A stretch of 64,000 nt of DNA. Origin: Methanobacteriota archaeon (lineage in GTDB: Archaea; Thermoplasmatota; Poseidoniia; Poseidoniales; Poseidoniaceae). The position numbers and the translations under genes are program-made. The DNA is taken from the NCBI GenBank assembly GCA_004195635.1, contig PSPT01000005.1:1-64000 (forward strand). Reading direction: 5' to 3'. The notes beneath the pieces are model-generated. The model was not told the DNA's origin, made no database searches, and saw only the letters and a list, made by a program, of their open reading frames with translations. This document shows, piece by piece, positions 25,432 to 35,234 of the stretch. How positions within the stretch are numbered: the stretch's first letter is position 1; each line of letters begins with the position of its first letter.

Positions 25432-27795
25432 GTGGTTGAATTACCAAGAGGTGAAACTGTCGAAAACCGCCGCGGCGGCCCCGATGTTTTGCAGACTTTG
25501 GTACGTGATCAATTTGGTCAAAATGGCACTGGCTATATTCGAATTGAACGCATCCCAAAAACTGGCCATCCGCGAATTGGTCAATTGGTTATTAAAGATG
25601 GAAAACCACTCGCAGCGATTCATGAACAGGCCGCCATACGACATGGCGTTGAGGCTCTAATTGAAATTGAAGATGATGCACTATTCCTCCAATCACAACT
25701 TAGTGTCATTAAGGATGTTGAAATAGAACTGATTGCTCAACTTCATCCAGAAGCCCTCCTTAATATTTCAATGGCTTGGGAGGTGGATTCACCATTGTCA
25801 TCGGACAAGCACTGGTGGGAAGGAAGAAAGGCTACTGAAATAAAATGGTCAACAGTTGAAGAATTGCCAGAATATGAGACAGTTGTCGAGACACCAGAAT
25901 TCATTCAACGTGCTGCGGCGATAAAAAGGGCGCAGATGCAAGGGGAATTAGCGGGTGAATTGTTACCGGGCCATGTCCACCTTCTCGATGCAGAAAGGTC
26001 GGATGACGCATACAAACTCGCATTTGAGTTAGCCAGTATTGGTAGACCATTGTTGGTAATTTCAAGAACTGCGAGAGAATCTATCAGCGTAGAATATAAT
26101 ATTCCTCCATCGGCTTGTTGGTGGCTTTCAGAAAGACCAAGAAATGCCGAGCAATCCCTTGGCCCAAGATTTGAGGAAATTAGTAGAGTGATAAATGATT
26201 TCTTATGGGGCAATTTACGAGCAGTTGTATTATTCGACGGTATGGAATTTCTAAGTAGCATTCACGGCACAGAGCGGATGCTTGGATTCCTGCGAAGAAT
26301 TGCTGATGATTTCAACGATAGTGATAATTTATTGCTTATTCCTGCCGACCTTTTAGTCTGGCCTGAAAAGGAAAGAAGAAAGATTCAACGCGTAGCCGAT
26401 GAAATTCCAAGTAAATTAGTTAGTTATTGGCTTCAAGACCCTGAATTATTATCGCAGCACCCTTTTTGCGCCCCCCCCTCTGAGGAAGAAAGTAAATGGA
26501 TAGCAGATAGCCTAAAGTCTGCACTAGAAATAAGGAATAAACCTTTGGCTTCAACTGAAGAAAATAATTATCCTCGGCAACCAACCGCACAATTACCAAC
26601 AAATGATGAGGGGCTAAATGGTCCAATTTCCAACTCGGCAATACCTACTGAAGAAATTCTTGGCATTGCGAATAAATTTTCTGCTGGTGAACTTGCAAAG
26701 CAATTGCTTAGCGAAGATGAACTACAAAATGTTGATGTGAAAAGCATTAGTGTTGATTCTATTGAACAAGTTGGTCCTTCTGAAGATTGGATTCCGACCT
26801 TCCATTCTGCGGCCCCTCCAAGCGCCTCACAATCCATACCCGCCGAGCCACATCTCCCACAAACAATTACCCCTGAAACGGAGGGAAGCTACACAGAAGG
26901 GATTGCCACAAACGTTGAAAAACCACACGAAAAATACGAGGACTTAGATGAAGGTGATGAGGTTGAAGTCACTGTTAATGACCTCCCAGCAGCCGTCTTA
27001 CAGACGCTTCATAATCATCTTCCGAGAGGAAAAATAATTTCTGCTGAGTTGGAAGTAGAAGATGGACAAATGCACTATGAATTGAATGTATTTCAAGATG
27101 GTGTTGAATATGAAATTGAGATTACTCCCGAGGGCTTTGTGGTTGAGTTAGAAATAGAGTCGAGACAGGGCCCACGGAGTCCGGTTTACCTTGGGCAACG
27201 AAAAGATTTGCGAAGTGGGAGCAAATCAACTGAGCATATTTCATTAAATCTAAACGAACTTTCTGCTGCTGCGACTCTCGCAGAGAATATCTCAACAATA
27301 CCCCTTGAACACAGAGTTAAACTAAATGATAGATTGGCTAAGGCCAAACAAGCATTAGAAGCAGTAAGTACTGCAAGCATTAGTGCCGACATAAGGATTA
27401 CAAAGGCTCAATTACCTCGCCCTAGCGGTGATATTGAAAGAGAGAGGGTTGTTGGCGAATGGAACCAAGTCGCTAATTCAGCATCACTTCCACAAATAAA
27501 AAATGAGGTCCAAGCACCTCGAAAGTTACCCGATTCATGGTCAGCAGCGGCATCACATATTGGACGGCGCAAACATGATGGGCTGGAAAATATAGAGGGT
27601 ATTGGTTCTCCGCTTAGCGCCAGACCTGGAATTGAAATTACCTCTGAAGATAGAGGGAGGGAAATGTCAAGACGAGGGCAACGAGACATGTCGCTTTCAG
27701 CAATATCGCGACGTATTGCAGAACAAGATGCAATACGTATGAGAGAGGAGAAAGGAGCAAAGGTAGTAACTAAAAATCGGGGTGTAAATAAATGA
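25432..27795 (+). CDS. PATAN/DUF4388-like plus DUF835-like multidomain protein
   Basis: N-term 'GYIRIERIPKTGHPRIGQLVIKDGKPLAAIHEQAAIRHGVEAL'; middle 'RPLLVISRTAR..FLWGNLRAVVLFDGMEFLSSIHGTERMLGFLRRIADDFNDSDNLLLIPADLLVW' resembles DUF835; GTG start. Confidence 0.7.
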   Translation: MVELPRGETVENRRGGPDVLQTLVRDQFGQNGTGYIRIERIPKTGHPRIGQLVIKDGKPLAAIHEQAAIRHGVEALIEIEDDALFLQSQLSVIKDVEIELIAQLHPEALLNISMAWEVDSPLSSDKHWWEGRKATEIKWSTVEELPEYETVVETPEFIQRAAAIKRAQMQGELAGELLPGHVHLLDAERSDDAYKLAFELASIGRPLLVISRTARESISVEYNIPPSACWWLSERPRNAEQSLGPRFEEISRVINDFLWGNLRAVVLFDGMEFLSSIHGTERMLGFLRRIADDFNDSDNLLLIPADLLVWPEKERRKIQRVADEIPSKLVSYWLQDPELLSQHPFCAPPSEEESKWIADSLKSALEIRNKPLASTEENNYPRQPTAQLPTNDEGLNGPISNSAIPTEEILGIANKFSAGELAKQLLSEDELQNVDVKSISVDSIEQVGPSEDWIPTFHSAAPPSASQSIPAEPHLPQTITPETEGSYTEGIATNVEKPHEKYEDLDEGDEVEVTVNDLPAAVLQTLHNHLPRGKIISAELEVEDGQMHYELNVFQDGVEYEIEITPEGFVVELEIESRQGPRSPVYLGQRKDLRSGSKSTEHISLNLNELSAAATLAENISTIPLEHRVKLNDRLAKAKQALEAVSTASISADIRITKAQLPRPSGDIERERVVGEWNQVANSASLPQIKNEVQAPRKLPDSWSAAASHIGRRKHDGLENIEGIGSPLSARPGIEITSEDRGREMSRRGQRDMSLSAISRRIAEQDAIRMREEKGAKVVTKNRGVNK

Positions 27796-29801
27796 AATCC
27801 CGAAAAAAGGCCAAACTTACCAATGCTATTGAAAGTAGCAAATCTCTAATTGATTACGAAGCAATTGATTCCGCAGACAAATCCCACTCCCGATTTGCCG
27901 AACTTGCAGGAATTCCAAAAGGAAAGAAGAGGGCGAAAATCTCACTATTTCAAAAAGCCGCAACAGGTGACAAGAGAGCTTCTTTCGCACGAATTGCAGA
28001 CAATGTACTTGGTGAAGAATCAAGGCACTCAAGTAGAGTCTTGGAGTTTACCGAGAACGAAATTGATCAACAAGTCGGACTTGGACCTTGGATTCAATCT
28101 CGTATTGATGTTCTGCGCAGTGACAATATTGAGAAGTTAGAAAATGTCGCTGAATCAGCAGGATGGGCAGGACATAACGAGAGTGGCGAGCCCTTTTGGA
28201 AAGTTGTTTTAAATGAACGCAGAAATACCGCTACTTGGGAAAAAGATGACAATGCAGGCAAGGAAACATGTCTAAGCGACGCGCTTCCTTCGCTTGAAGA
28301 ACCACTTGCTGAATTTTCAAAATGGCCACCTCATTTGCCTCGTAACGAACAGCGGACTTTTAAAAACTTCCACGCATGTAGAGAAAATGACCTAGCTTCA
28401 CTTAGCGTAAATGAAATTTTGGATAAGCCGGCTGGCAAAGTAAATCCACTTTTGATTATTGGGGAAAATGGCACTGGTAAAACACACCTCCTTTGGGCGA
28501 CAGGCTGGGCTTTTTCCAAACAAATGCCTTGTGATTGTGTTAGACTATTTTCTTGCTCAATTTTTGATGCTGATTTTAACCTACCAAATAATTGGAATGA
28601 GATGCTTGACAGAACAAGTGCATTGTTAATTGATGATATTGATTTGATCTATTCAATGCCAGATACGATGCACGCTATTGGCCTAATTATTGACTGGGCA
28701 ATGAACATAGGCATTCAAGTCGTGCTAACTGCCTCCACTCAATACACAGGTGTCGCCAATAATCGCCTAAGCGAAGTATTGCGTTCAGCAGTCGTTACAG
28801 AATTACAAACTCCAAGTATTGACTCTCTGTTAATGATGCTTCGTCAACGAATTTCAGGAAGGCAATTGTTGCTTACTGATTCAATGCTAGAAGTGATTAT
28901 TTCAGAATCTGATAAATCCTGGACCTCTTGTCAAGCAACTCTTGAGAAAGTGGCAATCGGAATTGAAGGCGGAATGGAAATAAGTGATAGTAATGATGTT
29001 GCTATGTTATTAAGAAATCCAAGTGAGATGAGGGGGACTGAACAAATTGAAGAATCATATGCTGATATTAACCTTGAAGAAAAGGGAGCAGAAATTGCCG
29101 CAGAAGTGCTTGATACTGTATTTGCCGACCCTCTTTCACCGGCGATAGAGATTCACACAGAGTTACCAAATATTGGATCGGATGATTACATTCCACCTGA
29201 CTTAATGCCGGATGATTCAGAGGCTGCAATAAATGCAATTGTTCAGCGGCATCTTGGTGAAGAACTCGAGCAACTAAACAAGCGGAGAGACCATGCGCTT
29301 AGAGTAGATGAAAGAGATGCACACCTGATAACCAAGGCCCCAGAATTGGATGCTGAAATAAGGGAAAAAGTTGCAGAACAATTATCGCCTCTTGAAATGG
29401 TTGCAACAGCTGGATTTGGCAGAATCCAAGATGAATTATTGGAGCATCAAAAGCGGCTTGCTAAGTATGAAAAAGAATTATTTGAAATTGGAACACAAGT
29501 TGAAACTGCCGATGCTAAAGAACTGATTAATCTTGTTGACAAGTTACGAGATGTCCAAATCAACTTGGCAGAAATTGACCCCGATTCACTACCTCTGCCA
29601 GAGTTTGTTGATGTAAAAATTAGGAGGAGACCGGTGCGGAAAAAACCTGAGATCGTTCGCCTCCCTGTCCTAACCCCCCTCCCCATATTGCCAGTAAAGA
29701 GGGATACAGCGCATATCGTGCCGGTTTTTGACCCCGTATTGATTCCAGTAAATAATGCCCACTATTTTTCAATCAAAGATAGTAACTCAGTCAAAGTTTG
29801 A
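27792..29801 (+). CDS. DnaA/Hda-type AAA+ ATPase with long C-terminal helical/Pro-rich tail
   Basis: 'RTFKNFHACRENDLASLSVNEILDKPAGKVNPLLIIGENGTGKTHLLWATGWAF', Walker B 'ALLIDDIDLI', sensor 'VVLTASTQYTG..RLSEVLRSAVVTELQTPSIDSLLMMLRQRI'; 4-bp overlap with upstream gene. Confidence 0.82.
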   Translation: MKSRKKAKLTNAIESSKSLIDYEAIDSADKSHSRFAELAGIPKGKKRAKISLFQKAATGDKRASFARIADNVLGEESRHSSRVLEFTENEIDQQVGLGPWIQSRIDVLRSDNIEKLENVAESAGWAGHNESGEPFWKVVLNERRNTATWEKDDNAGKETCLSDALPSLEEPLAEFSKWPPHLPRNEQRTFKNFHACRENDLASLSVNEILDKPAGKVNPLLIIGENGTGKTHLLWATGWAFSKQMPCDCVRLFSCSIFDADFNLPNNWNEMLDRTSALLIDDIDLIYSMPDTMHAIGLIIDWAMNIGIQVVLTASTQYTGVANNRLSEVLRSAVVTELQTPSIDSLLMMLRQRISGRQLLLTDSMLEVIISESDKSWTSCQATLEKVAIGIEGGMEISDSNDVAMLLRNPSEMRGTEQIEESYADINLEEKGAEIAAEVLDTVFADPLSPAIEIHTELPNIGSDDYIPPDLMPDDSEAAINAIVQRHLGEELEQLNKRRDHALRVDERDAHLITKAPELDAEIREKVAEQLSPLEMVATAGFGRIQDELLEHQKRLAKYEKELFEIGTQVETADAKELINLVDKLRDVQINLAEIDPDSLPLPEFVDVKIRRRPVRKKPEIVRLPVLTPLPILPVKRDTAHIVPVFDPVLIPVNNAHYFSIKDSNSVKV

Positions 29802-30949: not shown

Positions 30950-32125
30950 ATGACACCAAATCCGGCTCCAAAATCTCTCATTGAAATAACCGAGGCGCAC
31001 CTAAATACTGGGCTTCGCGGCGTCCCAGTTGGAACTTGTAGAACCTCATTTGTTACACCTGAAGGCGGTGTACATTATGTCGGATATCCAATTGATGAAT
31101 TGGCCGAGTTAGACCCCGAGGATGTTGTCTTCCTTCTCCACTATAAACATCTTCCAAATCCGGATGAAGCATCCTCTTTTCGCAAAGATTTAGCAGCGCG
31201 TGCAACCCTTCCTCCACACGTAGCCAATGTACTTCAAGCAATGCCCAAAGAAGGCCACCCCATGGATTGGCTCGCAGTTGGCCTTCAAACATTGGGCTCT
31301 GCAAATAAAACTGAGGACTGGCGAGAAGATGCACTCAATATGACTGCTTGCATGCCCGAACTTATGGCTTTGATTTTCCGAATACGTGAAGAGCGTTTTG
31401 AAGGCATGCCAGAATCACGGCCTAAACTTGGCTTGGTTGCAAACTTCGTCCATATGCTTGACCTTCCTGGAGCTGATAAGTGGGCTTTGACCAAAGTACT
31501 GCGGGTTTTCCTTGTCCTTCACATGGATCATGGAGGAGGCAATCTCTCCACCTTCACCGGTAAAGCAATTGCAAGTAGCCACTCCGATATGTATGCATCA
31601 ATGGTCGGGGCAATGAATGCTCTATTTGGACCATTACACGGCAGAGCAAATCAATCCTGCCTAGACTTTGTGCGCCGCATTGGTACAGATGATAGCGATG
31701 CAGTTGAAAAATTCGTCCGCGCCGAACTTGCTGCAAAGAGACCAATATTTGGTTTCGGCCATGCCGTTCTCCGAACAGAAGACCCACGGGCTGCAATTCA
31801 GTTTGCACTAGGTGAAAAAATATGTCCAAATGATTCAAATTTTAAAATTATTAGAACACTTAGAGAAGTTGTCCCTCGAGTCCTTAGCGAAATCCCAAAA
31901 ATCAGCAATCCAAATGCAAATGTGGATATTTCTTCCGGTACATTGCTAAACTATGTTGGACTCGTTGATTCTGAATATTACACTACATTCTTTGGCTGGG
32001 CGCGAACTGCTGGAATTGGAGCCCAGATTGTTGATGAAAGAACAATTATGCGCGCTGGGCGTGGCGTACCTCTTTACCGACCAAAATATATCGCAGAAGA
32101 ACAGCAAGAGCAACATATTGAATGA
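30950..32125 (+). CDS. Citrate synthase
   Basis: 'HMDHGGGNLSTFTGKAIASSHSDMYASMVGAMNALFGPLHGRANQ', 'GFGHAVLRTEDPRA', 'RAGRGVPLYRPKY'. Confidence 0.95.
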   Translation: MTPNPAPKSLIEITEAHLNTGLRGVPVGTCRTSFVTPEGGVHYVGYPIDELAELDPEDVVFLLHYKHLPNPDEASSFRKDLAARATLPPHVANVLQAMPKEGHPMDWLAVGLQTLGSANKTEDWREDALNMTACMPELMALIFRIREERFEGMPESRPKLGLVANFVHMLDLPGADKWALTKVLRVFLVLHMDHGGGNLSTFTGKAIASSHSDMYASMVGAMNALFGPLHGRANQSCLDFVRRIGTDDSDAVEKFVRAELAAKRPIFGFGHAVLRTEDPRAAIQFALGEKICPNDSNFKIIRTLREVVPRVLSEIPKISNPNANVDISSGTLLNYVGLVDSEYYTTFFGWARTAGIGAQIVDERTIMRAGRGVPLYRPKYIAEEQQEQHIE

Positions 32126-32203: not shown

Positions 32204-33355
32204 CTAATAAATTGGCCGTTGACTTTTCCCACAGCCTCTATGCCCAATTAGTCGAACTGCTTCCCAAGGCATGGTTGAAGTTGAGCAGGACTCCATCAGT
32301 TCATCAATGCTCTTTTTCCATTCATAGCGATTACGCCAAAGCGTAACTACATTTTTTTGCTCAGAATAATTCATTTCATGCCACGGGGTTAATTCCGAAT
32401 ATGCCTGGGAGATAAGTTTCTCATGCTCTTCTTGGGCCGAGGAAGAAAAGTGATTGATCCATTCATCGGAAAGTGGAAGATTTGCAGGTTTTTTCCAGCG
32501 AGCAGAGCCGCAAGGCAGTGTATGGATAGATGGGTCTGCATTATCAGTTAGAGGTGTAATTCCTGCGTTAATCAATTCTGCTTCTAGATATAATTTACCA
32601 GGCCAAACATATATTGGAAACCCACCCGTTGCTTGACGTAATTTCTGCAATTGCTTACCCTTGAGCCCAACCGAAGACCCGAGAGGCAATTTGTTTGTAG
32701 GCGGAATAAAGTATTCTAATGCACATGGAACCATTGGAGAATTATTGGCTCTTTGCTTTCTTATTAACCGGGAAAGAGGAGTTGTGAGATACTGAGGAAT
32801 ACAAACTGTACGCTTGAATGTTCTCCCCCCGAAACGGGGTATGATTGGCCATAATATTGAGGCGGGGCGATGGATTTTTGCCTTTGTGGTAATAGCAGGT
32901 AAACCCTTGAAAAATGCATAATATACGCTATTTTGAATTGATACTGAATATTCGGACAATTTTTCTTCTGCGGCCATCACTAACTTTTTCATTTGGGCTC
33001 TTTGCTTACCACTTGCAAGCCAACCACCAGAGGCGCCAGATGAAGGATGAGGTGGTTTTAGTTCAACGCAAATCATCGCCGCCTGTTCATTTAGTCGCAT
33101 TAAAACATCCTTATTGGCTAGAAAATTTTCAAATGATGTAAAGCCCAAAGCACATAAATCATCAAGACTATTTTTTTCTACCCAAGGAGATTCAAGTCCA
33201 GAACGAACTTCTTCGCAAGTACTTACTTTGGCATCATGATGAATGATTACCCCTCCATCCTTTGTTAATCGTAAATCAAATTCAACTCCATCAAAATCAA
33301 TGAGGCCTTGGCGCAAAGACTCAAGGCTGTTCTCGGGTGGTTGAACCCATTCCAT
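32204..33355 (-). CDS. Glycerophosphodiester phosphodiesterase-family protein, apparently circularly permuted
   Basis: N-term 'PPENSLESLRQGLIDFDGVEFDLRLTKDGGVIIHHDAKV', 'ICVELKP', 'IYVWPGKLYLEAELINAGITPLTDNADP', C-term 'VRLIGHRGCGKSQRPIY' stop. Confidence 0.85.
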   Translation of the reverse strand: MEWVQPPENSLESLRQGLIDFDGVEFDLRLTKDGGVIIHHDAKVSTCEEVRSGLESPWVEKNSLDDLCALGFTSFENFLANKDVLMRLNEQAAMICVELKPPHPSSGASGGWLASGKQRAQMKKLVMAAEEKLSEYSVSIQNSVYYAFFKGLPAITTKAKIHRPASILWPIIPRFGGRTFKRTVCIPQYLTTPLSRLIRKQRANNSPMVPCALEYFIPPTNKLPLGSSVGLKGKQLQKLRQATGGFPIYVWPGKLYLEAELINAGITPLTDNADPSIHTLPCGSARWKKPANLPLSDEWINHFSSSAQEEHEKLISQAYSELTPWHEMNYSEQKNVVTLWRNRYEWKKSIDELMESCSTSTMPWEAVRLIGHRGCGKSQRPIY

Positions 33356-33458
33356 ACACCGGCGATTGTTTACCTATTGATAAAAAAGACCCCTGATACA
33401 CTGCTATAATGAGGAAGTATCAAAAGAGAATAGACCTTGCTTATGATGGGAATAGATC

Positions 33459-35234
33459 ATGAAGACATTAAAGGAGAAGCGGGCAAATCGTAGTGATGAG
33501 CAAAAAAAATCCATTTTCGGCTATGGAATGTATGATTGGGCTAAGTCTGCATACGAAACAAGTGTAGTCACCGCAATATTACCAGCATGGTTTACCTATC
33601 TGTTCATAAGAACAAATGGTTCTGCCTTTACTTTGCTCGGTGATTTTACGATAACTGCAGATATCGCTTGGGCATTTGCAACTATGGCCTCAGCAATGCT
33701 CATCGCATTTGTGTCACCGGCATTGGGAATAATTGCCGATAGAACTACAATAAAAATGTGGATGTTGCGGCTATTTACAATTATTGGAGTTATTGGCACT
33801 ATTGCTCTTGCAATTGGAGGTTATCTTGGCGCTGGTGCTTGGCTTTGGGTCTGGGTTGCTTATTTCTTTGCTAATTTAGGATTAAACGGTGCAAGTGTAT
33901 TCTACAATGCAATTCTCCCCCACATGGGTGATGAAGATGAAATGGATGAAATATCCAATAAGGCATTTGCTTATGGTTACCTTGGAGGGGGCATATTATT
34001 ACTTATTCACCTTGTAATGGTTCTCAGTTTAAGCGGCGATTGGGTAATTCCTTTTACTTTGGTCAGCAGTGGTCTATGGTGGTATGGTTTTGCATATTAC
34101 ACCTTTAAACATATACCTGAGCCAGAGGTTGAAAATCCACTTGAAATCACAGGAATAGGCCATGCTACAAAGATCGCATTATCCGAATTGAGGCAAACTG
34201 TAAAGGAAATCAGTAAATTCAAGGTATTAACAATCTACATGATTGCATATTTCCTATTTATTGATGGAATTAATTCCGTTACTGCACTTGCAGGTTCATT
34301 TGGCTCAGCAGTATTAGGAATTGACATTGGAACCCTAATGCTCGTAATCATGATTGTTCAATTTGTAGCAGCACCTGCCGCTATTGGATTTACCAAAATG
34401 GCCGAGGCGACTTCAACAAAGTCAGCATTAACGATAGCATGTGTTGGCTGGTGCGTGGTGGTTATTTTGGCAGTAGGGTTTGCTCCACTTGAACTTGAAA
34501 GCCACTCTGAGTATGATGTCCAACTTACCTATAATGAAACTACTGGGGAATATGATGTTATGACAATAAGCGACCCCGACGATTTATTTGGAGGAGGCGC
34601 AAGTGACAAGGCAATCCTTGCGGTTTTTGATACCGATGCTGCAAGTATGCCAACAATGGAAGTGGGAGATTCTTGGTCAGACGATGCAATAGCGGGTTCG
34701 ATGTCTCAAAGCGCAATTGATTCAGGTTTTACCGGCCTGTTTTCTGATTCAAGATTTAGTGTTTCAATTGAGGGCTCTCCTTTAAATGATTCAACTACTG
34801 TTGGTTTGGATCATCCAACAAATATTGGTGATGAAGCAGGAGATGGCTTTGCGGTGTGGTTACGAGATAACTTTTGGGCACCATATTCCTTTTCAGTTTC
34901 AACCCAATTCTTGCTGCTCGGAGTAATGTCTGGCTCATTATTAGGTGGAAGCCAAGGTTTAGCGCGTTCATTATTCTGTCAAATTATCCCAGAAACACGT
35001 TCAACAGAATTCTTTGGGTTCTTTGGATTTTTTGGAAAAGTTGCTGCATTTATGGGTCCATTCTTGTATGCCTTTGTAGGTGGGTTTTTCGGCAGTAGAA
35101 TGGCATTAGTTAGTATTGCGCTATTGATAGTTGCAGGAACTTTGATGTTGAAAGCAGTTGATGTTGAAGAGGGTATCCGAGTTGCAGCCGAGGAAGATTT
35201 ACGAAATCGTGGATTTTATGCCGAGGCTGAATAG
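33459..35234 (+). CDS. UMF1/Atg22-like MFS transporter with a large hydrophilic insert
   Basis: 'FGYGMYDWAKSAYETSVVTAILPAWF', 'ALGIIADRT', 'GGSQGLARSLFCQIIPETRSTEFFGFFGFFGKVAAFMGP'. Confidence 0.9.
   Translation: MKTLKEKRANRSDEQKKSIFGYGMYDWAKSAYETSVVTAILPAWFTYLFIRTNGSAFTLLGDFTITADIAWAFATMASAMLIAFVSPALGIIADRTTIKMWMLRLFTIIGVIGTIALAIGGYLGAGAWLWVWVAYFFANLGLNGASVFYNAILPHMGDEDEMDEISNKAFAYGYLGGGILLLIHLVMVLSLSGDWVIPFTLVSSGLWWYGFAYYTFKHIPEPEVENPLEITGIGHATKIALSELRQTVKEISKFKVLTIYMIAYFLFIDGINSVTALAGSFGSAVLGIDIGTLMLVIMIVQFVAAPAAIGFTKMAEATSTKSALTIACVGWCVVVILAVGFAPLELESHSEYDVQLTYNETTGEYDVMTISDPDDLFGGGASDKAILAVFDTDAASMPTMEVGDSWSDDAIAGSMSQSAIDSGFTGLFSDSRFSVSIEGSPLNDSTTVGLDHPTNIGDEAGDGFAVWLRDNFWAPYSFSVSTQFLLLGVMSGSLLGGSQGLARSLFCQIIPETRSTEFFGFFGFFGKVAAFMGPFLYAFVGGFFGSRMALVSIALLIVAGTLMLKAVDVEEGIRVAAEEDLRNRGFYAEAE

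Follow-up and report, generated by a model that had tools for sequence, protein, structure and literature searches.

Natural circular permutation of a TIM barrel is known and structurally solved in the GH70 glucansucrases, an unrelated family with a different cut point from the protein described here. The closest described relatives of this protein are the glycerophosphodiester phosphodiesterases (GDPDs) of family PF03009, for which we used PDB 2pz0 (T. tengcongensis), 4oec (Thermococcus kodakarensis), and 7e0v (Pyrococcus furiosus) as compared examples. Here, we analyzed a stretch of 64,000 nucleotides of archaeal DNA (the window) that contains a minus-strand ORF at 32204-33355, identified by ORF calling and by reading of the sequence, with an ATG start and a length of 383 aa. 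Like the PF03009 enzymes, the encoded protein has HRG, PEN, ExD, HD, ExK, W, and TD motifs, a GDPD-like predicted fold, and significant profile matches. Unlike them, it has no HRG at the N-terminus; HRG and strand 1 instead follow an added helical linker at the C-terminal end. It is also about 130 aa longer than linear archaeal GDPDs.

The protein is almost certainly a circular permutation of a GDPD, as a sequence-only reading of this DNA had proposed; the order of the motifs, the effect of rejoining the termini, the relatives, and fold prediction all support that reading. It is also very likely that the whole account holds, namely a natural circular permutant of the GDPD TIM barrel that was fixed in the ancestor of the Poseidoniales. 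It is uncommon for a natural permutation to carry a catalytic motif from one end of an enzyme to the other and to become fixed in an entire order. Open PMC full texts (with subscription papers and preprints outside the scope) yielded no permuted GDPD and no GDPD in Poseidoniales, and the one literature candidate for a permuted GDPD contained conventional GDPD toxin domains only. We therefore provisionally describe this protein as an order-wide natural permutant of GDPD with no earlier account in the open PMC full texts.

Order of motifs in the protein

The N-terminal residues of the ORF are MEWVQPPENSLESL, and the start of the chain corresponds to the loop immediately preceding PEN. The chain terminates in AVRLIGHRGCGKSQRPIY, and its HRG-bearing C-terminal end is LIGHRGCGKSQRPIY. 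Reading in frame toward the ATG, the codons are TAG GTA AAC AAT CGC CGG TGT ATG, and the TAG at 33374-33376 means that no N-terminal extension with an HRG was missed. Between TDNADP and HRG lies a stretch of approximately 80 aa that is mostly helix. The sequence-only reading had described a C-terminal HRG with its codons at this position (H372-R373-G374 at 32242-32234, minus strand), an in-frame stop a few codons upstream of the ATG, and an extra helical region of about 80 aa before HRG, and each of these observations held. A Pfam profile search of the host MAG (1.75 Mb) returned this ORF as the sole match to PF03009. See Table 1 for the coordinates of all features.

Table 1. Coordinates of the GDPD gene, its sequence features, and its convergent neighbor
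Feature	Position	Strand	Basis
GDPD gene, almost certainly permuted, 383 aa	32204..33355	(-)	ORF; PF03009 E 7e-10; homologs in 296/319 Poseidoniales genomes
In-frame TAG, 7 codons upstream of ATG	33374..33376	(-)	Read from sequence
P7-E8-N9 (PEN) loop, first residues after permutation point	33329..33337	(-)	E8, N9 invariant in 28 homologs
E25-F26-D27, predicted metal-site ExD, strand 2	33275..33283	(-)	Invariant; aligns with E44/D46 of PDB 2pz0
H40-D41, predicted second catalytic His-Asp	33233..33238	(-)	Invariant; aligns with H59-D60 of 2pz0
E98-L99-K100 (ExK), predicted metal/phosphate site, strand 4	33056..33064	(-)	Invariant; pairs with invariant E101/K103 of linear GDPDs
W251 of YVWP, strand 7	32603..32605	(-)	Invariant; pairs with W199 of linear GDPDs
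T270-D271-N272, last canonical strand (TDxP equivalent)	32540..32548	(-)	D271 invariant; hhalign pairing with ITDHP
Helical linker, residues 284-362, old C-terminus to relocated strand 1	32270..32506	(-)	Alignment and AlphaFold2 model
Relocated beta-1 segment, residues 363-383, PWEAVRLIGHRGCGKSQRPIY	32207..32269	(-)	HRG in 173/174 complete ORFs; AlphaFold2 strand 370-372
H372-R373-G374, predicted catalytic HRG	32234..32242	(-)	R, G invariant 173/173; aligns with linear HRG after rejoining
Citrate synthase gene, convergent conserved neighbor, not part of the enzyme	30950..32125	(+)	PF00285

The motifs run PEN-ExD-HD-ExK-W-HRG along the protein instead of the family order HRG-PEN-ExD-HD-ExK-W, which is a cyclic shift. 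In the native order, residues 7-71 match PF03009 profile positions 9-69 (E 7e-10), with a score of 39.9 bits against a gathering cut-off of 23.6, and the first profile positions, which carry HRG, have no partner at the N-terminus of the protein. We then rejoined the termini by placing the tail, beginning with the Trp-containing PWEAVR or GWKAVR, in front of the chain. The score rose from 39.9 to 46.1 bits for the window protein and likewise for four homologs (L003, 39.2 to 43.5; L007, 54.5 to 58.3; L042, 51.4 to 57.1; L044, 48.1 to 54.5). In all five pairs, the rejoined match reached profile position 1, and the gain of 4-6 bits bears out the proposal that joining the C-terminus to the N-terminus recreates a canonical GDPD start.

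Comparison with alignment A3, built from 13 linear GDPDs of archaea in the same phylum, gave the same picture. The invariant residues of A3 are H7, G9, E16, N17, E34, D36, H49, D50, E101, and K103, and each has a one-to-one counterpart in the permuted protein, cyclically shifted. Aligned in native order with hhalign, query positions 4-282 paired with template positions 19-242 at 99.2%, and neither strand 1 of the template nor the tail of the query was paired. After rejoining, the alignment began at template position 8 and included IGHRG, at 99.1%; the AVRLIGHRG of the rejoined tail was paired with the MVLVIGHRG of the linear families. By both hhalign and Pfam, the N-terminal part of the protein is thus homologous to the C-terminal part of the family and its C-terminal part to the family N-terminus, as in a circular permutant. 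Mapped onto 2pz0, E25/D27/H40 correspond to E44/D46/H59, and H372-R373-G374 correspond to H17-R18-G19 by way of a composed, hand-joined consensus peptide that serves for numbering only.

Predicted fold and conserved residues

AlphaFold2 modeled the window protein, with 28 family members, at a pLDDT of 95.4 and a pTM of 0.92. The tail forms a strand at residues 370-372, and the tail block has a pLDDT of 92-97. A member of the sister family was modeled with a pLDDT of 91.8, a pTM of 0.91, and a strand at residues 356-359. Both models are confident GDPD folds, and Foldseek searches of the PDB with them returned almost exclusively GDPDs as top matches (E down to 1.8e-7 and 1.1e-8). Taken as predictions, the models and the Foldseek matches show the TIM-barrel fold of the PLC-like phosphodiesterase superfamily. 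Against linear GDPDs, the models reach moderate TM-scores (mostly 0.4-0.7), which is expected, without being proof, when a sequential aligner meets a permuted and enlarged barrel.

The chain would begin just before PEN, in the loop that connects strand 1 to helix 1, pass through strands 2-8 in the usual order and then the added helical linker, and finish with the HRG-bearing strand 1. The AlphaFold check suggested in the sequence-only reading agrees in that the tail is a beta strand. Homology, the strand assignment, and the missing strand 1 lead us to infer that this last segment takes the beta-1 position, where it most likely slots between strands 8 and 2 and closes the barrel. The active site would then be completed by H372/R373 with E25, D27, H40, E98, and K100. 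In mean-field DCA, the pair 268-369 (strand 8 to strand 1) was third of about 71,000, while MI-APC placed it at rank 3128; as the suggestive DCA rank found no support in MI-APC, we do not count coevolution as evidence. The sequence evidence for a permuted GDPD would be identical if the protein were a domain-swapped permutant, an obligate oligomer in which each barrel is completed by the C-terminal HRG strand of a neighboring subunit, and the 80-aa helical linker before the tail could reach a partner. We consider this very improbable, as the AlphaFold2 monomer models place the tail confidently, and genera g3 and g10 keep the W...R.[ILM]GHRG.G tail behind a linker that is 30-45 aa shorter and so has less reach.

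We collected 174 distinct, stop-to-stop complete homologous ORFs from the fetched loci. A [G/C]HRGxG motif lies within the last 40 aa in 173 of them, so the motif is not a chance occurrence. In all 173, the HRG keeps its R and G, and the Arg ahead of the motif (R368) is present in 171. The lone ORF without the tail is L214 (genome G291), and no plausible GHRG was found downstream in any frame of the fetched sequence; the absence may reflect either natural loss or a MAG error. Start codons placed mechanically mostly cluster immediately before PEN. Two other apparent placements of HRG were rejected. An HRG in an extension upstream of the usual start was seen in 2 of the 174 ORFs, and both also have the C-terminal HRG; the internal 'HRG' near residues 146-174 of some homologs belongs to an unrelated FHRGM/FHKGM segment.

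The invariant columns of a 28-sequence alignment include E8, N9, E25, D27, H40, D41, E98, K100, W251, and D271, followed in the tail by R368, G371, H372, R373, G374, and G376. The metal-site residues E25, D27, H40, D41, E98, and K100 are therefore all among them. An alignment of the sister family has a closely matching invariant set, and identity to the window protein is as low as ~30%. Comparison with the nearest relative, at 91% identity, gives a dN/dS of 0.11; over the last 23 residues, the two genes differ by about 5 synonymous and 0 nonsynonymous changes. The tail also resembles a Walker A (P-loop) nucleotide-binding motif of the form GHRGxGK[ST], in which case its likeness to HRG would be incidental: GHRGSGKT fits GxxxxGK[ST], as do 130 of the 173 sequences. 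This identity is extremely improbable, and we rejected it on conservation, since the Lys is missing in 27 of the 173, whereas the R and G of HRG never vary. Moreover, the chain ends 7-19 residues after the His, which leaves no room for the P-loop domain that would follow the motif; the protein has a predicted GDPD fold, and rejoining improves its match to the GDPD profile.

Predicted activity and its implications

Because all residues of GDPD catalysis are invariant, a metal-dependent glycerophosphodiesterase is the most likely activity, and the protein is probably an active phosphodiesterase. The expected reaction would convert glycerophosphodiesters to glycerol-3-phosphate (G3P) and an alcohol with a divalent metal, as in linear GDPDs. 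A permuted protein with changed catalysis, acting on another diester (for example, in the manner of a lysophospholipase D) or serving in binding, would account for the long insertions relative to linear GDPDs (383 versus about 240 aa), the strong extra conservation outside the active site, and the lysophospholipase D structures of the GDPD superfamily among the Foldseek matches. Such a change is unlikely given the invariance of the catalytic and metal residues, and the G3P product could be used, since a GpsA-like G3P dehydrogenase (PF01210) was present in all nine Poseidoniales genomes tried. The FGGY kinase family was present in one of these nine. The gene context gave no pointer to a specific substrate of the putative phosphodiesterase.

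Poseidoniales are reported to lack the archaeal glycerol-1-phosphate (G1P) enzyme and to have a G3P dehydrogenase (PMC6461757, PMC6962369). Release of G3P by the permuted GDPD would fit this lipid background, although the link is weak because archaea with standard lipids can have linear GDPDs as well. The protein is also relevant to the lipid metabolism of Poseidoniales, in particular to their glycerol-phosphate chemistry.

The permutation itself might be functional. Since the catalytic His and Arg lie only a few residues before the chain ends, the active site would form only after the whole chain leaves the ribosome, and this late formation could gate activity, an idea we regard as quite unlikely. 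If it is true, both free termini would lie beside the active site, and activity could be gated by release, binding, or trimming of the tail, in archaea that are reported to rely on G3P and to have no G1P enzyme. For annotators, this case offers a concrete rule: as the motif of highest diagnostic value is not in its usual place, profile methods give permuted GDPDs low scores, and such homologs are easily annotated as partial or inactive.

Distribution, origin, and locus

Homologs were found in 158 of the 171 genomes of the host's own family (Poseidoniaceae) and in 296 of the 319 genomes of the order Poseidoniales (MGII archaea, which are abundant in the surface ocean), in both families. Among near-complete genomes (at least 90% complete and at most 5% contamination), the count was 33 of 35. 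Family f1 is Poseidoniaceae; f2 would be Thalassarchaeaceae, the published second family (PMC6461757), and f3, a sister clade in the same class as Poseidoniales, is presumably MGIII on the basis of the same paper. The closest named relatives come from Euryarchaeota/Candidatus Poseidoniales (Marine Group II) genomes. A contig search gave 297 relatives, and the 80 kept were titled as Poseidoniales or unclassified Euryarchaeota with one exception, L119 (CALDQY010000035.1). This contig is titled 'uncultured Rhodobiaceae bacterium' and carries a typical Poseidoniales permuted GDPD, so it is probably a mislabeled bin. No relatives were found in the viral contigs, phages, and plasmids searched. One genus g3 genome (G016) has three copies (L034, L035, and L036), one full-length and two with a shortened linker.

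The sequence-only reading had also suggested looking for the same order in related genomes, and it was present throughout Poseidoniales; in none of these relatives does this protein have a normal N-terminal HRG. This distribution bears on a more trivial explanation, an artefact of assembly or binning or a normal GDPD with a frameshift, given that the source MAG is fragmented (31 contigs, 80% complete). We rejected this explanation, whose probability is negligible, because the same order recurs in 296 genomes from independent assemblies, including the single-contig 2.06-Mb chromosome CM001443 (L011/L088) and single-cell genomes. The neighboring gene is also conserved, and the GDPD gene is under purifying selection. 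Of 80 loci retrieved from named genomes, 76 have an ORF homologous to citrate synthase beside the permuted GDPD, and this conserved convergent neighbor indicates that the loci are orthologous.

The linear GDPDs checked outside Poseidoniales in Thermoplasmatota, including those of f3 (L222 and L223), share the catalytic residues and the archaeal phylum with the permuted protein but have the canonical order, with H[RK]G on the N-terminal side. Their likeness to the permuted profile does not extend beyond roughly its first 100 positions; of the matches listed, all those outside Poseidoniales are partial in this way. As these outgroup proteins are linear, the permuted order appears to be derived and would most simply have arisen in the ancestor of Poseidoniales. 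Within Poseidoniales, we also observed a linear HRGG protein (L216). Some members of the order encode short GHRLG proteins (L072, L073, L074, L077-L079, L217, L234, and L238) with a GDPD-like N-terminal half. These differ from the permuted GDPD in being linear, about 200 aa long, and in having the Leu-interrupted HRLG in place of HRG; the second half of the barrel is apparently absent. In genus g10, a lipoprotein-like gene is found near them.

Other genes of the window have features of their own. The divergent neighbor of the GDPD gene, at 33459-35234 (+), encodes an ATG22-like/MFS transporter whose middle part is interrupted by an insertion rich in Asp, Ser, and Thr that is unusually long, at roughly 140 aa. 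Further away, directly after the gene for a DUF835 protein (25432-27795), the archaeal protein encoded at 27792-29801 (+) matches the bacterial DnaA ATPase domain PF00308 (E 6e-14).
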